Assembly (NCBI GenBank): GCA_017860275.1
Contig: JAFNAQ010000005.1
Location: 1-64,000 of the forward strand
Length of the DNA stretch: 64,000 nt
Origin: Bacteroidota bacterium
GTDB lineage: Bacteria; Bacteroidota; Bacteroidia; Bacteroidales; P3
Direction of reading: 5' to 3'
In this document: piece by piece, positions 7,152-55,823 of the stretch
Layout: each line of letters begins with the position of its first letter
How positions within the stretch are numbered: position 1 is the stretch's first letter
Position numbers and translations under genes: made by a program
Notes under the pieces: model-generated
The model's database searches: none
What the model was told of the DNA's origin: nothing
Seen by the model: the letters and a program-made list of their open reading frames with translations, nothing else

Positions 7152-7184
7152 CTCAATCAATATCATTTTAAAACTTAATTAATT

Positions 7185-7802
7185 ATGAACAGAAAATTAT
7201 CAATATTCTTTTTAATCCTAATAAGTGTGGTCACATTCTCTTCTTGTGAACGTGAAGAAGATTATAATTATATCGAATACAATAATCTTAATAATAAAGC
7301 TATTGAATTATATGATTATATGGGGCAAGATTTCAATGACTTGATTGATGACCTTGAATATTCTGGATTAATAATAAAAAGCAAAACAAGTTCAAATGCA
7401 AGGCTTGCAAATTCAACAGGATCGATAGTATATTATATTGAATGTAATAGGAATAGCCGCATAGATTATGCAAGAGTTGAATATTTTACAAATAAGACCT
7501 CGCTTGCTCTTGACCGTTATGGATATTGGCATAATGATTGTTTTGATTTAGGCTTTGATATTAACTATTATGGAGAAATCTTCACTTATGATCAAGATTT
7601 ATTCACTTATAATAATGAAGCCGAATTTATTAATGATTATTCTGCAATGAAGTACAATATTCATGATTGTTTTGAAGATTGGATTGGGGTTAGTTATGCA
7701 ACTGGAGTTGATTACTTAGCCTTAAGCACATACGAAAGAAGAATAGGAATTCAAGTATGTGATAAAGATGTTTTAAAAAACACAAAAAAGAGTAGAAAAT
7801 AG
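7185..7802 (+). CDS. Hypothetical lipoprotein
   Basis: A 205-residue protein with a lipoprotein signal peptide (LISVVTFSSC, cleavage before Cys21), so it is probably anchored in the periplasm or outer membrane. The mature part is rich in Tyr, Asn and Asp and ends in a basic tail (KKSRK). No family is recognised. It is a single gene with a strong promoter of its own, convergent with the next gene 15 bases away. Its function is unknown. Confidence 0.7.
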   Translation: MNRKLSIFFLILISVVTFSSCEREEDYNYIEYNNLNNKAIELYDYMGQDFNDLIDDLEYSGLIIKSKTSSNARLANSTGSIVYYIECNRNSRIDYARVEYFTNKTSLALDRYGYWHNDCFDLGFDINYYGEIFTYDQDLFTYNNEAEFINDYSAMKYNIHDCFEDWIGVSYATGVDYLALSTYERRIGIQVCDKDVLKNTKKSRK

Positions 7803-7817
7803 AGGAAGAAAGATACT

Positions 7818-8750
7818 CTAATCTACCAAATATTTCATTGGTATTAATGCTACTAGTTTCTTAATTAGTAGCATTAATATTATTGTATAAATAAATCTTA
7901 TTACAAATACCCCTACCCAATCGGCTCCAACACCTATCATCAATAAGGAGTCCTCAATTATTGAATGAAAAAGACTCAGAAGCGCTAGACTTAGAAAAAT
8001 ATCCTTCTTCGAAATATCTTTTTCCTTCGATTCGGCAATTATCAAACCTCCTCCGTAGGCTAACCCTAAAGTCATTCCTATAAGAGTCAAAGGCATCACC
8101 TTCTCACTTATTCCAAAGAATTTTATTATCGGATAAAGAGCTTTATTTATCAAACTTATTACCCTAATTCTTTCTAAAACATCCAATGTTATTATTAAAC
8201 TCATAACAATTAAGCAAATACTAAAATATTTCTGAACCTCAGAAATTCCCCACTCTACTAATGTTTGGTTTGGTTGAGATATTATTGGCAAATCCACTAT
8301 TGTTTGATTAGTATTTGTAATGGTATAAATCAAATTAATTAGAATTGCATATATGTATCCTCCCACAAAACGGATAATAAAAGTTGGCAAAACCTTCACT
8401 CCAGCCTTCTTACATATTGGAATTTCAATTAAAAAAGTATGGGAAAAAAGAATAAGTGTTGTTAGAGTTGTTATTTGAGCTATAGTTAAAGGATTATTTG
8501 CATAAACACTACTAAGGGCTAATAATCCACCATAAATATTTGATAGCATTGCTGTAACCCAAACCAAACTCATCTCTCCAGGCAAACCCAAAGGATACAT
8601 TAGTGGTTCAAATATATTTCCAATAATAGGCATGAGATTAGTCTCATTTAATATCTTAATCAAGATACTGATTGGTATCATTATCTTAAAAAATATTGAA
8701 CAAGCCTGCCACCACTTCTTGATAATTCTATATATATACTCCTTTACCAT
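7818..8750 (-). CDS. Gate-domain (nucleoside recognition) membrane protein
   Basis: A 310-residue polytopic membrane protein with the two-part Gate/nucleoside-recognition fold. The first half includes VWVTAMLSNIYGGLLAL and FLIEIPICKKAG; the second includes IGMTLGLAYGGGLIIAES. Related proteins are annotated as spore-maturation-like or nucleoside-recognition proteins, and the transported substrate is unknown. A perfect 13-bp inverted repeat (7843-7855 with 7866-7878) lies inside its 3' coding end. Confidence 0.8.
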   Translation of the reverse strand: MVKEYIYRIIKKWWQACSIFFKIMIPISILIKILNETNLMPIIGNIFEPLMYPLGLPGEMSLVWVTAMLSNIYGGLLALSSVYANNPLTIAQITTLTTLILFSHTFLIEIPICKKAGVKVLPTFIIRFVGGYIYAILINLIYTITNTNQTIVDLPIISQPNQTLVEWGISEVQKYFSICLIVMSLIITLDVLERIRVISLINKALYPIIKFFGISEKVMPLTLIGMTLGLAYGGGLIIAESKEKDISKKDIFLSLALLSLFHSIIEDSLLMIGVGADWVGVFVIRFIYTIILMLLIKKLVALIPMKYLVD

Positions 8751-43872: not shown

Positions 43873-44664
43873 ATGATTTCACTATTTATTGATGGCTTAC
43901 CTAATCTAAGAATAATTGATGCATTAGATATCATACTTTCGGCCTTATTATTTTATTCAATCTATAAACTAATCAGAGGAACAAATGCCATAAGTATATT
44001 TGTAGGCTTCTTTGTTGTATACTTAATTTGGAAGATAGTCAATATCTTAGAAATGCGACTACTCTCCGAAATAATTGGACAATTTATAAGCGTAGGAGTA
44101 ATAGCACTAATAGTAATATTCCAACCAGAGATACGTCGTTTCTTATTACTATTAGGAACAAAGAGCATGAATAACTCAAAGAAAAGGAGATTTTTGTGGT
44201 GGCGAATGGATTCCGAAGAAAAGAAAAATTTCAACTCCACGGCAATTGTTCAAGCCTATCAGCATATGTCAATGCAAAAGATTGGAGCATTAATAGTAAT
44301 TGCCAAGCATAATGAACTAGATACAATAGTACACTCAGGAGAGGTAATAAACTGCGATATAAACTCACAACTAATAGAGACGGTATTCTTTAAAAACACC
44401 CCATTGCACGATGGAGCAATGATAATAAAAGGCAATACAATAATAGCGGCACGTTGCATCTTGCCAGTATCCTCTAATAGAGAAATCCCAGCTAACTTTG
44501 GTCTAAGACACCGTTCAGCGATAGGGATAACCGAACAAACCGATGCCATAGCAATAATAGTATCGGAACAAACAGGACATATCTCCGCAGTAAAAGAAGG
44601 AGTATTAGAAGAAAACATCTCCCCAACCCGCCTACAAGAATTCCTCGACCAAGAACTAAACTAA
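43873..44664 (+). CDS. cdaA: Diadenylate cyclase CdaA
   Basis: Makes cyclic di-AMP from two ATP. The 263-residue protein has three N-terminal membrane helices (about 12-95), then a DAC catalytic domain with DGAMIIKG (Asp180) and LRHRSAIGIT (211-220). The folP-cdaA neighbourhood is typical for Bacteroidota. It gives the cell a cyclic-dinucleotide signal distinct from any made by the CD-NTase at 51.4-52.3 kb. Confidence 0.94.
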   Translation: MISLFIDGLPNLRIIDALDIILSALLFYSIYKLIRGTNAISIFVGFFVVYLIWKIVNILEMRLLSEIIGQFISVGVIALIVIFQPEIRRFLLLLGTKSMNNSKKRRFLWWRMDSEEKKNFNSTAIVQAYQHMSMQKIGALIVIAKHNELDTIVHSGEVINCDINSQLIETVFFKNTPLHDGAMIIKGNTIIAARCILPVSSNREIPANFGLRHRSAIGITEQTDAIAIIVSEQTGHISAVKEGVLEENISPTRLQEFLDQELN

Positions 44665-45168: not shown

Positions 45169-48100
45169 TTACCTATCAGCCCACATCTCGCATTGCCTAT
45201 AAACTGTTTCCAAGGCATCGGCACGCTTTTCAGGGGGATAATTATATTTTGCCAAGAGTCGCTTAATCATTTTTCTCATACCTGCTCTAGCGGTTTCCTT
45301 CTTTTGCCAATCAATTGTTTTATTCTTCTGCAATGACTCGGTTAACTCCTTTGTGATAGCAATAAGCTGTTCATTATTGAAGAAATCCTTAACAGCATCT
45401 GGCTTTGTAAGAGCATCATAGAAGGCTTGTTCCTCATCGTCTAAACCAAGACTAGAATTTTCCTCTTTTGCATTTATTATATCATGAGCCATCTTCAATA
45501 ACTCTTCAATAACCTGCTCATTTGTTAGCATACCTTTAAGGTAATTGCTCATAGCTCGAGAAAGAATCTCCGAAAACTTCTCACTCTTTACAACATTTGT
45601 TTTTTGATAGACATAAATCTGTTCTGCAATCAGTTTTTTGAGGAGTTCAACGGCAATATTGCGTTCTTTAATATTAGCAATATCATGTAAGAACTTAGGA
45701 TCGAACAAAGAAAACTCTTCTTTTATATCAGAAAAAAGATTTATCACACCCTCGCTTTTTATACTTTGAGCCAATAAATCATTTATCCTCTTGTTAATCT
45801 CTTTAATTGACACACCACCCTTGCCCTCAATCCTGGTAATAAGTGTTCTTACGGCTTCAAAATAAGCCGCCTCAATTCTTTGGTCATAACCTACAATACT
45901 CTTACAAAGGGAGAAAAAATTATGAAGCAACATAGCCTCTTTGACAAATGTTTGTTTTATGTTTCCCCTAGAAATTTCGGAAAGAAAGTTTACACCACCA
46001 CTAATAAGCCTAGCTCTTTGAAGATCGCTACCCGAAAGAAACTTCTTATATTCAAAACCATGCATCGAGTCCTTGCAAACCTCTAGTTTATTTAGGAATT
46101 CATTATATGCCTTTGATGAAATATCTTGATCCCCGTAGTTTTGTTGGTCCCTAATTGTATAGTCAGACATGGCCTGTTTCAAGGCTGGTGCAATACCTAC
46201 GTAATCCACAACCAAGCCCCCAACCTTGTCCTTATATACTCTATTAACCCTGGCAATTGCTTGCATAAGGTTATGCCCATTCATAGGCTTATATACATAC
46301 ATAGTAGAAAGAGAAGGAACATCAAAACCTGTAAGCCACATATCTACAACAATAACAATCTTCAGACTATCATCATCGTTTTTGAATCTTCTCGATAACT
46401 CATCTTTTTCTTTCTTATTGCCAATAATCTTTCTCCACTCTTCGGGGTCATCGTTCGAAGATGTCATCACAATAGCAAGTTTCTCACCCCACGAGGGTCT
46501 TAACTCAAGCATTCTCTCATAAATCTTCATTGCAATAGTTCGGGAATAAGCTACAATCATAACCTTTCCTGTCTGTTCATACTGACGAAATTCCTCATAG
46601 TGAGAAAGAATATCATCGCATAAGGTATTAATGGTTTGCTCTGAGCCAAGTATGCTTTCAAGCCTTCCCATCTCCCTTTTACTCTTATCTATAATATACT
46701 GGCTTGTATCTTCGCTAGCCTTATCATATTCATTGTCGATTAGGCTCAATAAATCCTCATCAATCTTTAGATTAACAACCCTACTCTCATAATAGACAGG
46801 CTTGGTTGCACCGTCTGCAACGGCTTGGGTCATATCGTAAATATCGATATAATCACCAAAGACCTCTCGTGTCGAGCGATCCTTCTTTGAAATAGGTGTT
46901 CCTGTAAAGCCAATAAATGTTGCATTAGGAAGGGAGTCTCTAATTATCCTTGCTGCTCCTATCTTTATCTGTCCTTCCTTAGAAATTTTCTCCTCTAGTC
47001 CATATTGACTTCTATGTGCCTCATCTGCTATTACAATAATATTTCTACGCTTCGATAATGCTTCGCTCGATTCCTCAAACTTCTGCATGGTCGAGAAGAA
47101 TATTCCGTTTGCCTCTCTACCATCCAAAAGCTCTTTCAAGTTTTTCCTGCTCGTTGCCTGAATAGGACTTTGACGAAGGAAGTTTTGACATTTTGCAAAC
47201 TGACCAAAGAGCTGGTCGTCCAAGTCATTTCTATCGGTTATTACAACTATTGTTGGTGAGTCTAAGTTTTGTTGTAGTAGTTTTGTATAAAAGACCATTG
47301 AAAGCGATTTCCCACTTCCTTGTGTATGCCAAAAAACTCCTCCCTTGCCGTCGGTCTTTACTGCTTGAAGGGTTGATTCTATTGCTTTTTTTACAGCAAA
47401 ATACTGATGATACCCCGATAATATCTTAACCTCTTGTTTATCTTCCTTCGAAAAACAGATAAAGTTATGAATAATATCTATAAGCCTTTTCTTCTCGAAC
47501 ATTCCCTCAAAGAGTGTGTCGAAGCTTGCATGCCTTCTATCTTCATATCCTCCAGTCTTTGTCTTCCACTCCATAAACCTATCCTCCGAAGAGGTTATTG
47601 TCCCTGCCTTAGAATAGGCTTGGTCACTCATTACCATAAATGCATTATACACAAACAAAGACGGTATTTCATGCATATAGTTCTTTAGCTGGCGATAGGC
47701 AGCACTTGCATCGGTTTCTTCTCTTGAGGGTGATTTAAGTTCCACCACAACAAGAGGCATTCCATTTACAAAGACAATTAAATCAGCCCTCTTTGTTGTG
47801 TTTTCCTCAATAGTCCATTGGTTAGCGACCGAGAATATATTATTATCTGTATTCTTATAATCAATAAGGATAACCCTTGTAGACCTTTGATGCTCACCGT
47901 CATAATAATTTACCTCAATACCATTTTGAAGATATTCCATAAAATGAATATTCTTTTCCAAAATCGATCCACTCTCAAAATTCTTCAATTTATATATTGC
48001 CTCATCAATTGCCTCTTTTGGCAGCTTTGGGTTAATCTCGCAAAGCCCGTCAATAAGCAATTCCTCATGCAAGGGCAAATGATAATCCCTTTCAACCTCG

Positions 48101-48183
48101 GGACCATAATAATAATGATAACCTAAAATATCACGAAAAATCTCTAAAACAGCATTCTCAAAACTCGCTTCACTAAAAGACAT
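45169..48183 (-). CDS. hsdR: Type I restriction subunit R
   Basis: The motor-nuclease of a type I restriction-modification system, 1004 residues. The PD-(D/E)xK nuclease is RADLIVFVNG...VVVELKSP (Asp134, Glu148, Lys150). The SF2 translocase has WHTQGSGKS (285-293), DEAH (387-390) and FTGTP. The C-terminus (about 770-1000) is helical and contacts HsdM. It starts 9 bases after the darG stop. The first 17 codons are also found as a fossil copy at 49931-49981, upstream of darT. It looks intact. Confidence 0.95.
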   Translation of the reverse strand: MSFSEASFENAVLEIFRDILGYHYYYGPEVERDYHLPLHEELLIDGLCEINPKLPKEAIDEAIYKLKNFESGSILEKNIHFMEYLQNGIEVNYYDGEHQRSTRVILIDYKNTDNNIFSVANQWTIEENTTKRADLIVFVNGMPLVVVELKSPSREETDASAAYRQLKNYMHEIPSLFVYNAFMVMSDQAYSKAGTITSSEDRFMEWKTKTGGYEDRRHASFDTLFEGMFEKKRLIDIIHNFICFSKEDKQEVKILSGYHQYFAVKKAIESTLQAVKTDGKGGVFWHTQGSGKSLSMVFYTKLLQQNLDSPTIVVITDRNDLDDQLFGQFAKCQNFLRQSPIQATSRKNLKELLDGREANGIFFSTMQKFEESSEALSKRRNIIVIADEAHRSQYGLEEKISKEGQIKIGAARIIRDSLPNATFIGFTGTPISKKDRSTREVFGDYIDIYDMTQAVADGATKPVYYESRVVNLKIDEDLLSLIDNEYDKASEDTSQYIIDKSKREMGRLESILGSEQTINTLCDDILSHYEEFRQYEQTGKVMIVAYSRTIAMKIYERMLELRPSWGEKLAIVMTSSNDDPEEWRKIIGNKKEKDELSRRFKNDDDSLKIVIVVDMWLTGFDVPSLSTMYVYKPMNGHNLMQAIARVNRVYKDKVGGLVVDYVGIAPALKQAMSDYTIRDQQNYGDQDISSKAYNEFLNKLEVCKDSMHGFEYKKFLSGSDLQRARLISGGVNFLSEISRGNIKQTFVKEAMLLHNFFSLCKSIVGYDQRIEAAYFEAVRTLITRIEGKGGVSIKEINKRINDLLAQSIKSEGVINLFSDIKEEFSLFDPKFLHDIANIKERNIAVELLKKLIAEQIYVYQKTNVVKSEKFSEILSRAMSNYLKGMLTNEQVIEELLKMAHDIINAKEENSSLGLDDEEQAFYDALTKPDAVKDFFNNEQLIAITKELTESLQKNKTIDWQKKETARAGMRKMIKRLLAKYNYPPEKRADALETVYRQCEMWADR

Positions 48184-48192
48184 AGGCGGTGG

Positions 48193-49236
48193 TTATTTTA
48201 GCATTTTGTCTGAAAACGAATTGATATGTTCTACTGCAATAGAAATATATTGATCCTTAGAAAACAACTTACTCTTTCTTTGACTCCATTTATTGATAGA
48301 ATCTTTTATGCTTTCTATATCATTTGTTTTATTTTCTCTTATTATGTAATCAATGGATGAAAGTAATTCCAAAGCAAAATTTGAATAAAAACCGGAGAAG
48401 AATTCCTTTGTTTGATCAACAATAGTATTGTATTTTTTATTTTCTTCCTTGTTTAGATACTCAATAACATTTTTTTCTGCATCCATTATTGGCTGCAACT
48501 CTTCAAAGGGCTTAGCATTCATTGAGCTATAACCCATAATATAGCTGCCATTTAAATGATAAAGAACTCTTTTAACCTTACCAGAATAAGGACCGTAATA
48601 ATAGGGTTTATATTCCAATTTAAACTCTTCGAAAGCTCCGAAACGTTGAAGGAAATAAGCAATTTTCTCAGAGGAGAATTCTGAAATAAATTCTCCATTT
48701 CTTACTAAATCATATAAAACAGACAAAAGCATGGCTCTGGCAGGTGTCAGACTTGCCCTCTCTGTTTTCATTTTGTCGATTATTGCCGAATTTGGTTCAT
48801 AAATAATAATCTCGCAATTCAAATCTCCCAAGCAATCAATAATCATTTTCTTTACCCTATTCCATTCTAATCCACCATTACCTGCACCCAAAGGAGGAAT
48901 AGCAATTGATTCTATATTATTTTCTATAATAAAATTCCTAAGTGCTATTAATCCTTTTTCAATATATTCATATTCTGATGGTTTTCTCCAATCTTTTTTA
49001 GTAGGGAAATTAATAATTATTTTCTTCCCATTTAATGTAGATTCTTCGCTAACAAGTATTTGTCCTACATCAAAAGTCTTTTCTTTGCAAGCCTTTTGAT
49101 ATAACTTGAAGTTAAGAGGAAAAGCGTTTTTAAATTGCAAAGCAATACCTTTACCCATAACGCCAACGGTATTTACTGTATTTATTAAAGCCTCAGCCCT
49201 ACTTTCAAGAATATTACCTTCTTTAAAACTTATCAT
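48193..49236 (-). CDS. darG: DarG-like macrodomain antitoxin
   Basis: A 347-residue antitoxin that removes ADP-ribose from DNA and restrains DarT. The macrodomain (1-~155) has EALINTVNTVGVMGKGIALQF, with Lys29 the likely catalytic lysine and Asn20 a contact, and the loop PPLGAGNGGLEW. The C-terminal half (about 160-347) matches the second domain of DarG, which binds the toxin directly (YYYGPYSGKVKRVLYHL). It overlaps darT by 14 bases, so toxin and antitoxin are translationally coupled. Confidence 0.88.
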   Translation of the reverse strand: MISFKEGNILESRAEALINTVNTVGVMGKGIALQFKNAFPLNFKLYQKACKEKTFDVGQILVSEESTLNGKKIIINFPTKKDWRKPSEYEYIEKGLIALRNFIIENNIESIAIPPLGAGNGGLEWNRVKKMIIDCLGDLNCEIIIYEPNSAIIDKMKTERASLTPARAMLLSVLYDLVRNGEFISEFSSEKIAYFLQRFGAFEEFKLEYKPYYYGPYSGKVKRVLYHLNGSYIMGYSSMNAKPFEELQPIMDAEKNVIEYLNKEENKKYNTIVDQTKEFFSGFYSNFALELLSSIDYIIRENKTNDIESIKDSINKWSQRKSKLFSKDQYISIAVEHINSFSDKMLK

Positions 49237-49855
49237 AATAATAATCTTTTTTCACTATTATTTTTTTCTCATTGACTCCAAAGCCAATCAATCTATTTTT
49301 AGCCCTTTCATCATAAACTGCGTATCCGATAATGAAATCAACACCCAAATCACCTATCAATAATAACTCTGCTTCTTTTCTTCTCTTTAAATCCAAATCA
49401 TTTTCATCAGACCATTGATTGCTCTTTATTGCTTTAGTATCAATGATTTCAAATAAATTTTCAATTTCTTCTTTTCTGTGTACTGAAGTAAAGGCATTTA
49501 TAGCGTGACCGTCGGTAAACACAAAATCGTTGCCTGAGTCAATAATTTTCTGAATCGAACTTACACAATAAACAATATTTGAAGGATGAACCTTCTCAAC
49601 CCCATTATATCCTGTTTGAATAACTAACAGCATAGGGGTTCTGAATGCAAAATAAAAAGGGATGAAATCACCTATTTTCTTATCGTCAATTAAAATCTTA
49701 TCCTTTCTTGTCTCAATAATTGTTTGATCTCCAATTCCTATATATTCCCCATTCGCAAATTCAGACTCCGGATGAGTAATCCCATACTTTAAAATATGAG
49801 GGATATTCTCAATATGAGTCATACGAAAAAGATATACCTTATTAAAATCAACCAT
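49223..49855 (-). CDS. darT: DarT-like DNA ADP-ribosyltransferase toxin
   Basis: A 210-residue toxin of the DarT (DUF4433) family, which uses NAD to ADP-ribosylate a base in single-stranded DNA and stops phage or host replication. Motifs: YLFRMTHIENIPHILKYGI (NAD pocket), FIPFYFAFRTPM (Arg72), FTDGHA and RRKEAELLLIGD (Glu161, the probable catalytic residue). All key positions seem intact. The base modified depends on subfamily and was not determined. Confidence 0.88.
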   Translation of the reverse strand: MVDFNKVYLFRMTHIENIPHILKYGITHPESEFANGEYIGIGDQTIIETRKDKILIDDKKIGDFIPFYFAFRTPMLLVIQTGYNGVEKVHPSNIVYCVSSIQKIIDSGNDFVFTDGHAINAFTSVHRKEEIENLFEIIDTKAIKSNQWSDENDLDLKRRKEAELLLIGDLGVDFIIGYAVYDERAKNRLIGFGVNEKKIIVKKDYYYDKF

Positions 49856-49930: not shown

Positions 49931-49981
49931 ACAAAAAATCCCCAAAACAGCATTCTCAAAACCACCTTCACTAAAAGACAT
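49931..49981 (-). pseudogene. Fossil 5' end of a second hsdR copy
   Basis: Reading down from an ATG at 49981-49979, the minus strand codes MSFSEGGFENAVLGIF, nearly the start of the present HsdR (MSFSEASFENAVLEIF). At DNA level 49931-49982 matches 48133-48184 at 46 of 52 positions. Homology then stops and the frame is not continued. It sits 13 bases after the DUF2806 gene and before darT, showing that an hsdR once followed DUF2806 directly. Confidence 0.85.
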
Positions 49982-49994
49982 ATGCGTTATTTAT

Positions 49995-50873
49995 TTATAA
50001 TACTTTTATGGGAATAAAATTTATCATTCCTGTCTGGTCGCAAGAATAACTATTAAGTAGCACTTGACTTATCCCTTGTGACTTTATTATTGCAACAATA
50101 TTATTCAAAGTATCTTCCGAGATTTCTGTTTCAAGCATTTTAAATAATTCTTTCCCTGCTGTAGATAATTTATAACAAGGAATATTTAGCTTTATTATCA
50201 TAGGTGTTTCATTAACTATTGATATGGCCTTTGTCCCATCTAATTTCAATAATACAAATTTCTGCGGTTCAATTTCGAAATTATTATAAATTGATTCTAA
50301 AAGAACAAGACCAATGTCATTAAGCTTAAGAATTCTATCTAAATTATTTTCATTTTTAGCTTTAAAAATCCGTTCGTAATTATATACTTTGGGTGCTATT
50401 TCAACAAATAATTCAGCCTCCTCCTTGGTCATATTCTTTAAAACATCAAGCGTTCTTAAAGAAAATGATTTTGGTTGTTTTACTTCCCCTGCAAGTATTT
50501 TTGCCCAAATATTTTGCATTTCTTCTTCAGAAACTCCCTCTGCACAATCAAAAAATCTATTTAACCAGTCTTTATCAACTGGTTCATTTGAAACCTGCTC
50601 TCCTTCATTGAACTGTTGCTCTGCTTTTGCAATAATATTTGCAACATTCTCAACCTTCTGTATATTTCGTATTTCATTATACTTCTCAACTATTTCATGA
50701 CCATGAAGTTTTTCAATTTCAATTGCAGTATCTGCCTTTGCGTTTTCGATACGTTCATATATCCTTGCATCAGCCATTTTCCTATAACCTTTAGCAGACC
50801 AACCAAAAGCATTGCAAATAGTTTCTCCTAACTTTGCTAATCCATCAGTATTTATTTCAATTAATGCTCCCAT
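49995..50873 (-). CDS. DUF2806 family protein
   Basis: A 292-residue protein of the DUF2806 family (opening IEINTDGLAKLGETICNAFG, then WLNRFFDCAEGVSEEEMQNIWAKILAGEVKQPKSFSLRTLDVLKNM). No membrane segment or catalytic motif is visible. It lies 9 bases after the SLATT gene and 13 bases before the hsdR fossil, all on one strand, so it belongs to the defence locus. Whether it works with the CBASS-like pair, with the R-M system or alone is unknown. Confidence 0.78.
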   Translation of the reverse strand: MGALIEINTDGLAKLGETICNAFGWSAKGYRKMADARIYERIENAKADTAIEIEKLHGHEIVEKYNEIRNIQKVENVANIIAKAEQQFNEGEQVSNEPVDKDWLNRFFDCAEGVSEEEMQNIWAKILAGEVKQPKSFSLRTLDVLKNMTKEEAELFVEIAPKVYNYERIFKAKNENNLDRILKLNDIGLVLLESIYNNFEIEPQKFVLLKLDGTKAISIVNETPMIIKLNIPCYKLSTAGKELFKMLETEISEDTLNNIVAIIKSQGISQVLLNSYSCDQTGMINFIPIKVL

Positions 50874-50882
50874 CTTCTAATT

Positions 50883-51443
50883 TTATTTTTTTCTTAATAC
50901 AACTGGTAGAAAAGCATCTATTTCCGCATCTGAAAAAGTCATTTCTTCATTTTTCTTAAGGGATTTTGTTGCTTCATTGTAAGCTTTTGAAATAGTCCTT
51001 GGCCCACCCTTATATATTTCTTTTAATTCACTTTGTAAATTATCTCTTTTTTCAATAATTTCATCATAGGAGATAATCCCAGCCCTAATATCTGTTAATA
51101 GAGATAAATAACTTTCTCTTATATTCCAAATTTCAACTGCTGAATCAGAATGTTTTTGCATCAGTTGTCCTAAATCATATTGTTTTAGATATGAATTAAT
51201 ACAAACAAGTACTAGAGATAATATCGCAGAAACATATCCCACCCAATTAACTTCGCCAAATATGGTATACAATATTCCACCAGTATTTATAGCTGAAATT
51301 ATTATTTGAGCCCATTTAAATCGAGAATTAATTCTCTTTAATATGTCTGCACATTTTTCTTGTGTTTTGTGAGAATAAACAACTCTACCATAACATTCTC
51401 TAAGTTGTGCCTCTATGTGACTAATTTGGGAATTTGTTTCCAT
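50883..51443 (-). CDS. SLATT-domain membrane effector (CBASS-like)
   Basis: A 186-residue protein with two adjacent membrane helices (about 44-63 and 66-84) between helical flanks, the SLATT arrangement of membrane effectors predicted to make pores when a nucleotide second messenger is made. SLATT_5-type families are typically paired with SMODS nucleotidyltransferases, as here: the CD-NTase gene overlaps it by 23 bases. Activation should depolarise or lyse the infected cell. The subfamily is assigned from pattern, not a search. Confidence 0.8.
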   Translation of the reverse strand: METNSQISHIEAQLRECYGRVVYSHKTQEKCADILKRINSRFKWAQIIISAINTGGILYTIFGEVNWVGYVSAILSLVLVCINSYLKQYDLGQLMQKHSDSAVEIWNIRESYLSLLTDIRAGIISYDEIIEKRDNLQSELKEIYKGGPRTISKAYNEATKSLKKNEEMTFSDAEIDAFLPVVLRKK

Positions 51444-52302
51444 ATATTTCTCTCCATTTATAGTTTGCTGACCATTCGTATTCTTTTACTTCGTATTGAA
51501 TTGCCTCTAAAGCATTATTATATGCTTTTTTTGCTTTTGCAACAAATAATCCATCATTATAAATATATTGATTACTTCCAGCTGCATACCATAAAGCTTG
51601 TTTGTCATTTTGTTCACTTAAAAACTTAAAAAAATCTCTTGTCATATAATCATAAAAAGAATATGAACAATTTTTATATTCCCAATCTTTCAAAAATTTA
51701 TGAGCCATTGTATCAATTAATAAACCACCCATATCAACATTACATGTGTCCTTCCACGCTCTTATCATTCTACATAACCTTTTGAGATTTTTATTGGTAT
51801 TATTGTTTAATGTATTAATAGCATTAATCTCGTGTTCAGGTTTTGTTACTTTCCAACTACCACCATTATTTGAATCGGGGTATGTAAAACTAATTTGGTC
51901 TGTATTTAAAAAGCACGGTACAATTTCATATTTTATTCCATCTGAAAATTCTACAACAACAACTTGACCATCGCCCTTTAATTTTGTTTGAAAATATGTA
52001 TTACTGATTGAGTTCTTTACTGCTTGCAATAATTGAGATTGTCCATTTGTAGTATATTTATCATATTGCCAATAATAACTACATGGCAATGTAAATAACA
52101 TATCAATATCACTTACATGAATAGCTGTTCCTCTTCCATATGATCCAACATAAAGACTGTTATTAATATCAGAATCTGTACCATAAAAATCTTTATTAAG
52201 TCTTTTGGTTATTTGTTTGTATCTGGATGATACATTATCCACCACTGTCTTTTCCATTCTAATATTTTTACAGAATGTCTCAAATTTTACTGATATACTC
52301 AT
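51421..52302 (-). CDS. CD-NTase / SMODS nucleotidyltransferase (CBASS-like)
   Basis: A 293-residue cGAS/DncV-like nucleotidyltransferase. The core is GSYGRGT (53-59) with SDIDML (Asp65, Asp67) as metal ligands, and KYEIVPCF supplies the third acid (Glu126 in place of the usual Asp). The helical C-terminal domain (about 155-293) includes LKRLCRMIRAWKDTC. It should make a cyclic or linear oligonucleotide signal on phage sensing; the product is not predictable by eye. It starts 16 bases after hsdS. Confidence 0.85.
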   Translation of the reverse strand: MSISVKFETFCKNIRMEKTVVDNVSSRYKQITKRLNKDFYGTDSDINNSLYVGSYGRGTAIHVSDIDMLFTLPCSYYWQYDKYTTNGQSQLLQAVKNSISNTYFQTKLKGDGQVVVVEFSDGIKYEIVPCFLNTDQISFTYPDSNNGGSWKVTKPEHEINAINTLNNNTNKNLKRLCRMIRAWKDTCNVDMGGLLIDTMAHKFLKDWEYKNCSYSFYDYMTRDFFKFLSEQNDKQALWYAAGSNQYIYNDGLFVAKAKKAYNNALEAIQYEVKEYEWSANYKWREIYGNKFPN

Positions 52303-52318
52303 AACTTTTATATTTTAA

Positions 52319-53470
52319 TTATACCCTAACCTCCCCATTCATAAGTTTAGGTAACAAACTATCCCTAAGCTCCGATAGGTTTATTTTTTCATATAAGGAA
52401 TCTCGTAAATATGAGATTATTGGTTTTGTTTTTATTGAAAATTCATCTAATATTTCTTCAGATGGAATAATGATTTTCATTTTTGATAATCCATTTTCCC
52501 AAACTGCATAAGGCATTGTTGAACCTTTTGATGTATTTTGAGCATAATCAATTGTTGCATTTTGATTGCAAACTAGCAATGCATATTCGAATAATTCGTA
52601 TTTTATTGGTCTTAAAACAAAACATGTACTTCTTGTCACTCCTTCACAAGGTGATATAGAAACTCTATGAAAATAAACCCTCATTGCACCAATCAATATA
52701 TCATTTTTTTCGAACTTTATTAGGCTTGATTGAGCTTCATTAGAAGGTTTAAACTCAATTAAACCTAATTTATTCATCGGTATAATATCTATTGGAAGAT
52801 AGGGCAACTCATTAACTTCCTCTTTTTTTATAGATATTTTGATATTTTTAATTACATCCCCTAACGTTCCAACTCTCCATCCTTCTGGGATTTTTCCTAG
52901 TTCGGAATCTATGAATTTTCCTCCATTTGTTTTATATGGTTTTCCTTCTTCGTCTGGAAATTCAAAATCCACAAACCACTGCTTAAATATCGCTTGTGCT
53001 TGTGCTTCTAAGTTTTCATTAATCTTATTATTTACCTCTATCTTATCATCCAAAGCACTCAAAACATCGGCAATACGTATCTGTTCATCAATATCAATAG
53101 GGAAAAAGACTTCAATTGGATGGATATGATTTCTATTTAATGTAGGTACCGCACTGCCTCCTGCATAATTACCTAAATTTAAAGTTTTAATAAAGTAATA
53201 AATGAATTTTGGATCATTACCTTTATAATCATCAATATATAAAGCGGTGTTATGAGCCCAACATTTTTCATAATAATATGGAGTGCCAACATTACCACTT
53301 CTGCCAATTGTTATGCAAGGTTCGATATTTGTTTGTTTATCATGATAGCCAATAATACCATTTGAACCTGCAACAGGTATTTCTCCTTCTTGCATATCAT
53401 ATTTTGGCAAATCATGACCTCTTCTAAAGTTGCATATCTCACCTAATGTTGTTGTTTCCCAGTTATTCAT
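52319..53470 (-). CDS. hsdS: Type I restriction specificity subunit S
   Basis: A 383-residue DNA-recognition subunit. Two target-recognition domains (about 1-125 and 190-345) each precede a conserved coiled-coil spacer: ADVLSALDDKIEVNNKINENLEAQAQAIFKQWFVDFEFP (split over about 131-169) and a shorter C-terminal one (YLRDSLYEKINLSELRDSLLPKLMNGEV). No second hsdS or inverted recombination site is present, so phase-variable specificity switching is not supported here. Its start overlaps a 14-codon mini-frame (53463-53507). Confidence 0.9.
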   Translation of the reverse strand: MNNWETTTLGEICNFRRGHDLPKYDMQEGEIPVAGSNGIIGYHDKQTNIEPCITIGRSGNVGTPYYYEKCWAHNTALYIDDYKGNDPKFIYYFIKTLNLGNYAGGSAVPTLNRNHIHPIEVFFPIDIDEQIRIADVLSALDDKIEVNNKINENLEAQAQAIFKQWFVDFEFPDEEGKPYKTNGGKFIDSELGKIPEGWRVGTLGDVIKNIKISIKKEEVNELPYLPIDIIPMNKLGLIEFKPSNEAQSSLIKFEKNDILIGAMRVYFHRVSISPCEGVTRSTCFVLRPIKYELFEYALLVCNQNATIDYAQNTSKGSTMPYAVWENGLSKMKIIIPSEEILDEFSIKTKPIISYLRDSLYEKINLSELRDSLLPKLMNGEVRV

Positions 53471-53499: not shown

Positions 53500-53663
53500 T
53501 TACTCATATTCTGCTTTTTTACTACCAACTCTTTCTACATATTCTTTTTTCAATTCAGCAATATATCTAATTTCATTTTTAGGAGTTTCCTCTTTATTTA
53601 TTGGAACATTTATAGGGACATTCCAAAAATATCTAACTCTATATATGACTCATTAAATTTCAT
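53500..53663 (-). pseudogene. Small ORF between hsdM and hsdS, one-base frameshift
   Basis: From the ATG at 53663 (MKFNESYIELDIF) the frame stops after 17 codons. If one T is restored in the T-run at 53625-53629, it continues WNVPINVPINKEETPKNEI and on to a stop at 53500, giving 54 residues. The stop overlaps ATGAGTAA, the start of a 14-codon mini-frame running into the hsdS start. No family is recognised; it may be a small R-M accessory protein or chance coding. Confidence 0.4.
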
Positions 53664-55156
53664 ACCCAATCTTTTTTAATTGCACTTTTATCTCTTCTTC
53701 TAACTCATGCGATTTAGAAAATAGTTCTGAAAGGTCGGTGGTTAGGCGTGTCATTTTTTCTTCGAAGGGTTCGGCGTCTTCTTCCTGATCTGCTATTCCT
53801 ACGTAACGGCCTGGAGTTAGGATATGGTCTTGTTTTGTTATGGTTTCAAGATCTGCTATTGCACAGAAGCCCTTTTCATCGGTTAGTGTTCCTTCATGGA
53901 AGGATTCGAAGGTTTGGGCTATCTTGTGTATATCATCCTCGGACAATTGCCTTAGCTTGCGGGTAAACCATTGTGCCGAGATTTCTTGCATCGATAAACA
54001 GGGTCTTGCCCTTTTGTTTCTTGTTCTTGGAAATAAACCAAATAGAGACGGGAATCTGAGTTGTATAGAAAAGCTGTGAAGGCATAGCAATAATACCCTC
54101 AACGATATCAGCCTCAATCATTTTTCTTCTAATCTCACCCTCTCCCGAAGTGTTGGAGCTAAGAGAACCATTGGCAAGCACAATACCAGCCTTTCCGCTT
54201 GGGGAAAGATGATGAACAATGTGTTGTATCCATGCATAATTGGCATTACCATTTGGAGGAAGACCATAAAGCCAACGAACATCCGTCGAAAGCTTGTCCG
54301 CTCCCCAATCGGAAAGATTGAAAGGAGGATTAGCCATAACATAGTCTGCCTTTAGGGTAGGGTGACAGTCGCTAAAGAAAGTATCGGCATTATATTTCCC
54401 AAGGTCAGCCTCAATGCCACGAATGGCAAGATTCATCATCGCCATCTTCCATGTTGTAGGGTTGGAGTCCTGACCATAGATTGAGATATTATTTATATTA
54501 GCCGAATGTGATTCAATAAACTTGGCACTCTGAACAAACATTCCACCGCTACCGCAACAAGGGTCATAAACCCTTCCGCTCAAAGGTTGCAATACTTCAA
54601 CAAGAGTTTGAACAATACATGAAGGAGTATAGAACTCACCAGCCAATTTACCTTCCTGCTCTGCAAATTTCGATAAGCAATATTCATAAACTCTACCAAG
54701 AACATCCTTCGACTCGTCCTTAGAGTGCATACTAAGATTAGTAAACAAGTCCACAACATCGCCAAGACGCCTTTTGTCGAGCTCAGGGCGAGAGAAATTC
54801 TTTGGCAAAATTCCCTTTAGCTTAGGGTTTTCATTTTCAATATGACGCATAGCATCATCAATAACCATTCCAATCTCTGGAGTTCTAGCCCTTGAAGCAA
54901 TAACGCTCCAGCGGGAATCCGTAGGCACATAAAACACATTCTCCGAAGTATATTCATCCCTATCCTCCTCAAAGCCCTCTCCCTCTTCCAAAAGCTCATT
55001 ATATCTGAGTTCAAATCTATCGGATATATACTTCAAAAAAATTAAACCAAGCACAACGGTTTTATACTCCGATGCATCAAGATTACCACGCAAAAGGTCG
55101 GCAGCCTTCCAAATTTTATCCTCAAAACCTATTTCAGCACTATTCAACTCAGCCAT
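53653..55156 (-). pseudogene. hsdM: Type I modification subunit M, frameshifted
   Basis: An N6-adenine methyltransferase split by a +1 frameshift. The first part (55156 down to 53933) contains the N-terminal helical domain, DPCCGSGG (198-205) and the catalytic NPPF (276-279), but after NLGTMV it runs into a wrong frame and stops. The other frame continues TRKLRQLSEDDIHKIAQTF to the stop at 53653. Removing one of three Ts (plus-strand AAA at 53965-53967) restores a 500-residue HsdM of normal length. It may be a true mutation or an assembly error. Confidence 0.88.
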
Positions 55157-55472: not shown

Positions 55473-55636
55473 GAGCGGTTTGGGTTAAGGTAGGTTAAGG
55501 TAAAAACATAAAAATAAAACTTTTCTGTAAAACAGCGAAAGCGAAATTTTTTTTTTGAAAAAAAAATTTCGCTTTCGCTAAAACTAAGATACTTTTTAAA
55601 AATCGATTTTTACCTTAACCCACCTTAACCCAAACC
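55473..55636. repeat. Nested long inverted repeat, about 160 bp
   Basis: Outer arms of 31 bp (55476-55506 and 55606-55636) match with one mismatch, and each contains GGTTAAGG twice. Inside, AGCGAAAGCGAAA (55534-55546) plus a T-run pairs with an A-run plus TTTCGCTTTCGCT (55567-55579), a near-loopless 22-bp stem. Together they could fold into a very tall cruciform or hairpin. No coding frame crosses it. The remaining spacer to 55823 has shorter palindromes such as CGAAATTTCG (55744-55753). Confidence 0.85.
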
Positions 55637-55823
55637 GACTAAACGCTCTTTATATCAATGCTTTAAGCCCTTGTAAAATTCCAGCTCAAAACCACTTCTT
55701 TTTGGTTAATTCCTATTAAATTTAACCCGAAATTTTGAGTGAGCGAAATTTCGAGGTACGATTTTTTCACTCCTTTTTTTGGTCATTTTCGGTTCGCTGA
55801 CAGCCTTAAGCGAAATATTATTT

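Follow-up and report, generated by a model that had tools for sequence, protein, structure and literature searches.

In E. coli, darTG2 is located between hsdS and hsdR of a type I restriction locus (the RRDM island), and the site has been suggested to be a potential recombination hotspot (PMC12255303), i.e. the hsdS-hsdR interval is already known as a site for defence genes. Two further described systems are relevant here. In long target duplication (Nobusato et al. 2000, as far as covered in PMC1643837) direct repeats of the target flank an insert that is often linked to restriction-modification genes, and in Vibrio cholerae the effector genes of the T6SS undergo serial displacement, proposed to occur via homology-facilitated illegitimate recombination (PMC5361080). 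Both one-sided homologous recombination and insertion with target duplication are known processes (PMC3240628, PMC5361080, PMC1643837).

The locus analysed here lies in a stretch of 64,000 nucleotides from a Bacteroidota bacterium (contig JAFNAQ010000005.1, positions 1 to 64,000; "the window") and combines the same type of cassette, darTG, with the same type I restriction slot as E. coli darTG2. It additionally contains a truncated copy (stub) of the hsdR 5' end. This stub is probably a scar left by recombination at the start codon of hsdR, the point between hsdS and hsdR at which defence cassettes would be added and swapped.

The hsdR stub in the window

On the minus strand the gene order is hsdM, hsdS, a CBASS-like module (SMODS CD-NTase, SLATT_4 effector, DUF2806), stub, darT, darG, hsdR and DUF3788 (Table 1). 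According to Pfam and PADLOC DarT adjoins a macrodomain DarG, as in DarTG toxin-antitoxin systems, and the CD-NTase is linked to a transmembrane effector, as in CBASS with a two-TM effector. The stub and the start of the present hsdR constitute the top direct repeat within an 18 kb region (66 nt, 85% identity, 56 of 66 bases equal including the leader). The first-pass annotation had reported 46 matching bases out of 52 at 49931-49982, including the ATG, and the repeat search agrees, with the homology extending 14 nt farther upstream into the hsdR leader. The spacing it gave is also borne out by the coordinates, i.e. the ATG of the stub (49981, minus strand) is located 13 nt past the DUF2806 stop and the present hsdR starts 9 nt past darG. 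The reading frame of the stub (49981-49907) is a dead-end ORF of 24 aa, MSFSEGGFENAVLGIFCIELRFLI, that runs into a stop codon.

The alignment score of the stub is 41, about 25 standard deviations over the mean of 300 Markov-1 shuffles of the 12 kb upstream (mean 11.0, maximum 16), and control windows from the same hsdR (n = 37) score 16 at most, ruling out a chance match as origin of the stub. Apart from hsdR itself, a search of the genome yielded no further copy.

Two other features were observed at the upstream end of the locus. At 53967 hsdM reads GGTTTAC as compared to GGTTAC in the related locus L024, and the resulting frameshift reflects either an assembly error or a real loss of methylation. 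Upstream of hsdM, at 55476-55637, there is a 31-nt inverted repeat (97%) with its arms 100 nt apart.

Table 1. Coordinates of features in the restriction locus of the window.
Feature	Position	Strand	Basis or remark
hsdR, type I restriction subunit	45169..48183	-	HSDR_N, SWI2_SNF2, T1RH-like_C
Leader and 5' end of present hsdR, homologous to stub	48133..48198	-	direct repeat
darG antitoxin	48193..49236	-	Pfam Macro 4.4e-21; PADLOC DarG E 3.8e-117
darT toxin	49223..49855	-	Pfam DarT 2.6e-40; PADLOC DarT 1.2e-49
TAnnTTTG promoter-like motif (TATCTTTG) between stub and darT, also in L024	49895..49902	-	motif match only
hsdR 5'-end stub	49931..49996	-	leader and ~51 bp coding start
DUF2806 gene, closing gene of upstream CBASS-like module	49995..50873	-	domain match
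SLATT_4 two-TM effector	50883..51443	-	SLATT_4 1.2e-68; PADLOC CBASS 2TM effector
SMODS CD-NTase	51421..52302	-	SMODS 5.1e-52; PADLOC oligonucleotide cyclase
hsdS specificity subunit	52319..53470	-	domain match
hsdM	53653..55156	-	frameshifted vs L024, extra T near 53967

Recurrence in the genus and beyond

Within the genus, the order in L024 is hsdS, OLD-family gene, stub, darTG and hsdR, in L023 it is hsdS, a large gene with a PADLOC match to PD-Lambda-4_A, stub, an AbiE pair (DUF6088/AbiEii) and hsdR, and in L027 hsdS is followed by a 301-aa ORF, a copy of the hsdS 3' end, a 241-aa ORF, a shortened hsdR stub, an AbiE pair and hsdR. From 13 bp before the ATG onwards hsdR is 99.5-99.8% identical in L023 and L024, whereas it is preceded by AbiE in the former and by darTG in the latter. 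L025, by contrast with L023, has a full hsdR behind the PD-Lambda-4-like gene, with a 5-nt gap equal to that before the L023 stub, and the alignment of the two loci is unbroken through the PD-Lambda-4-like gene, the leader and about 38 bases of hsdR, at which point L023 continues into AbiE. In relatives outside the genus that have the same HsdR type and sufficient upstream DNA no stub is found, and therefore the stub is not a fixed feature of this HsdR family.

Three local peculiarities of these loci are recorded here. The hsdS 3'-end copy in L027 (11630-11679, 40-50 bp) lies between two cargo ORFs and mirrors the hsdR stub; the promoter-like stretch ahead of AbiE occurs in two copies in L023 (13472-13640); and hsdR of L025 is a mosaic (7170-8200), with an initial, diverged part of about 80 bp, a stretch to about +450 that is up to 100% like L023/L024, and a later part like L026.

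The survey comprised 201 hsdR loci from the genus together with a collection search with the HsdR type of the window, from the family, and from order and phylum, the latter three sets being drawn by the Pfam HSDR_N model. Each locus was queried with its own hsdR 5' end (-15 to +60), and an upstream duplicate was called at a score of at least 25. Eleven of the 201 loci (the window, L024, L023, L027, L151, L148, L165, L169, L136, L190 and L269) contain such a duplicate, directly behind one cargo gene and ahead of another, a recurrence that rules out a one-off fossil. The duplicates are about 41-87 bp long, and 155 bp in one locus. The loci span several hsdR types and several types of cargo, the cassettes between stub and hsdR including darTG, AbiE, a DUF1016/YhcG nuclease, an AAA_15 ATPase pair and a DUF3800 gene and, judged by eye from sequence, a Fic remnant, an IS200-like transposase, an ATPase-HNH pair and a RelE-like gene. 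L162 and L255, which carry decayed stub copies, were left out of the 11. L158 was not counted either, having only 28 bp in common, at the start of a RhuM-like gene, and the repeat in L241 was discarded as low-complexity.

Control windows within hsdR reach 20.5 at most in the first two batches and a single 23 in the third, the latter in L255 with its long decayed copy. Of the control gene starts from the same regions, 6 of 729 reach a score of 25; by N-terminal sequence these are four hsdM/hsdS starts, one hsdS (palindromic repeat) and one repeat-protein paralogue. When kinship is taken into account, the 11 loci represent about 7 independent founding events, and 7 events compared to 6 controls correspond to p 0.01, or to p 0.0005 if the four hsd-type starts are removed from the controls. 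With 5 of about 45 family loci, besides the four in the genus, and 2 of 92 loci outside the family, the stub frequency looks higher within the family than outside. The 5' ends of hsdM in L177 and L090 and of hsdS in L188 and L243 are likewise duplicated, 0.66-1.2 kb upstream, suggesting that the scar may extend beyond hsdR.

Proposed founding of the scar and exchange of cargo

Cargo-hsdR and cargo-stub-cassette-hsdR arrangements both exist, and four pairs of them can be aligned (empty/filled: L025/L023, L159/L165, L160/L162, L138/L136). L023 and L025 are 90.6% identical over 1,539 bp, ending at about hsdR +37, and in the other pairs the similarity reaches hsdR +51 (L165/L159, 84.9%), +27 (L162/L160, 88.5%) and +43 (L136/L138, 84.2%). 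Together with the recurrence, these pairs uphold the proposal of the first-pass annotation that the stub is the start of an hsdR and marks a recombination joint. The four filled loci have single-copy counterparts, but these are not strain-level alleles. The upstream cargo is more similar (84-89%) than hsdM (80-83%) and hsdR (73-82%), and therefore the pairs do not simply show one lineage before and after the event, and the cargo itself has travelled.

The stub-darTG-hsdR unit is common to the window and L024 (5.3 kb, 78% identity throughout, hsdM 80%), but in L024 it is preceded by the unrelated OLD-family gene instead of CBASS. As the unit has the divergence of hsdM and the upstream gene is unrelated, the scar is older than at least one of these upstream modules, and the CBASS genes of the window may be the newcomer. 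This does not support the order of events in the first-pass annotation, in which CBASS/DUF2806-hsdR came first and darTG-hsdR later; the scar was rather inherited. A DUF1016 unit is shared in a similar way by L165 and L162, being 83% identical from stub to hsdR, with the Fic genes at merely 66%.

Taken as a whole, we regard it as likely that a scar at the hsdR start arose and that stub and hsdR start act as homology arms for the exchange of cargo. The upstream cargo gene would once have been located directly before an hsdR. A cassette (in the window darTG with its own promoter-like motif) would then have been joined to hsdR, with about 50 bp of an hsdR 5' end left on its far side, and stub and hsdR start would from then on be direct repeats, usable as short homology arms. 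Homologous recombination at these arms might exchange the upstream cargo while stub, cassette and hsdR are retained, and the inner cassette might be gained, lost or swapped there as well. For the founding event two processes come into question, one-sided homologous recombination and insertion with target duplication; we infer that the former is most likely, with hsdR as its anchor and an illegitimate joint on the left. The left joints vary from +41 to about +155, as expected under homology-facilitated illegitimate recombination. The repeat, its recurrence, the four cargo-hsdR pairs and the stub-cassette-hsdR units behind differing upstream genes are direct observations, whereas the repeats' role as homology arms is deduced from them; reuse of the hsdR-start joint as homology arm is a well-supported pattern but a putative process.

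The first-pass annotation had suggested that a diverged darTG-hsdR' entered a locus with a resident DUF2806-hsdR and replaced the old hsdR, the stub being left over. The geometry agrees with this, as the stub lies 13 nt behind DUF2806. Moreover, outside the window codon-wise differences between stub and resident hsdR amount to 18 synonymous to 4 nonsynonymous (L151 being restricted by hand to the first 84 bp, where homology holds), as compared to a neutral expectation of 15-20% synonymous, which would fit either a meeting of two functional alleles or a stub repaired from hsdR. For the window by itself, however, the suggestion of a diverged incoming allele fails, its 2 synonymous to 4 nonsynonymous changes fitting plain decay. 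Replacement by darTG-hsdR' is also at odds with L024, where the unit stands at hsdM's divergence behind a different gene, and DUF2806 or the other CBASS genes of the window were not found directly before an hsdR in any allele, DUF2806 having no relative in 188 other genomes of the family. We consider this replacement rather unlikely.

The synonymous differences also bear on insertion with long target duplication, in which a cassette entered the hsdR 5' end and duplicated 40-90 bp without any foreign hsdR. In L136, L024 and L151 they predominate to an extent exceeding plain decay of a dead copy. On the other hand, long direct repeats do lie on both sides of the insert, not only in the window but also in L148, where about 74 bp are 100% identical with the ATG as boundary on one side, L165 and L169 are 97.5-100% identical across the first 40 bp, and the pattern is known for restriction-modification genes of Helicobacter pylori in the account given in PMC1643837. 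On balance such an origin of the stub appears doubtful. Site-specific integration that restores the gene, of the kind known for integrative elements at certain gene ends, would account for the right joint, which always falls on the start codon or close to it, but is highly improbable, as Pfam/PADLOC recognise no integrase in the window, L023, L024 and L027 cassettes, the cassettes are unrelated and the variable stub lengths (about 41 to 155 bp) leave no fixed core. A functional role of the stub as leader peptide or regulatory element of the cassette downstream is hardly credible either, since the encoded peptides vary in length and ending, the L162 copy contains a frameshift and L027 has no start codon, even though short open frames exist and promoter-like motifs stand directly behind the stub in both the darTG and the abiE cassettes.

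The loci are mosaic and mobile in other respects, too. In WIN/L024 (WIN being the window) and L165/L169 a handful of sites pair the stub with its own hsdR and not with the other stub (alignments read by the author); such genome-specific bases hint, from few sites, at conversion between the repeats, or can mean repeated insertion. The protein of a core gene of the window (43873-44664) is merely 63-65% identical to the G003 and G010 relatives, as compared to 76-81% for HsdR and 87-91% for HsdM in relatives, which suggests that restriction loci themselves move between species. The differences at fourfold sites between the window and L024 are 0.225 for darT (49223-49855) and 0.49-0.57 for darG, hsdR and hsdM, a further sign of mosaicism, and part of darT was probably exchanged recently.

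Going beyond the scar at hsdR, it is possible, though less likely than not, that the ends of hsd genes (hsdR 5', sometimes hsdS 3' and hsdM/hsdS 5') serve as a general homology-based docking site, that cassettes spread with a short hsd end piece and that the scars give the order of acquisition.

Comparison with known systems

The E. coli darTG2 copy examined has hsdS, 12 bp and darT, with neither a second cargo nor an hsdR stub, i.e. embedding neither requires nor always leaves a stub. Most of the E. coli hsdS-darTG-hsdR stretch is present in 242 of 5,426 genomes, and among the matches listed none combines the same hsdS and hsdR with a lack of darTG. No published account of hsdR 5'-end scars was found in the open-licence literature, and both the scar with its recurrence and the empty/filled pairs appear to be new. 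The scars record how, and partly in which order, bacteria stacked immune genes, and they touch on the open question of how small transposase-free defence systems enter shared hotspots. A scar with unrelated cassettes and cassette-free cargo-hsdR counterparts is a sequence signature searchable in any genome, which may serve to detect new embedded defence genes, to help establish the sequence of acquisitions in a defence locus and to test gene-end repeats as drivers of exchange.

The stub loci share the flanking direct duplication and the link to restriction-modification with the inserts of Nobusato et al. (2000). Relative to those cases as covered in PMC1643837, however, the duplicate is always the hsdR 5' end, the flanks are cargo or restriction genes, and stub and resident gene often resemble different alleles. 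Like the T6SS loci of V. cholerae, the stub loci would have a conserved gene as anchor, an illegitimate opposite joint, leftovers of earlier states and later spread through ordinary recombination, but their cargo consists of defence modules in a restriction locus and the leftover is a dead 5' end, with no immunity gene retained. Finally, with hsd gene ends as docking sites, the order of acquisition would be legible in the scars as it is in integron arrays, albeit without an integrase.
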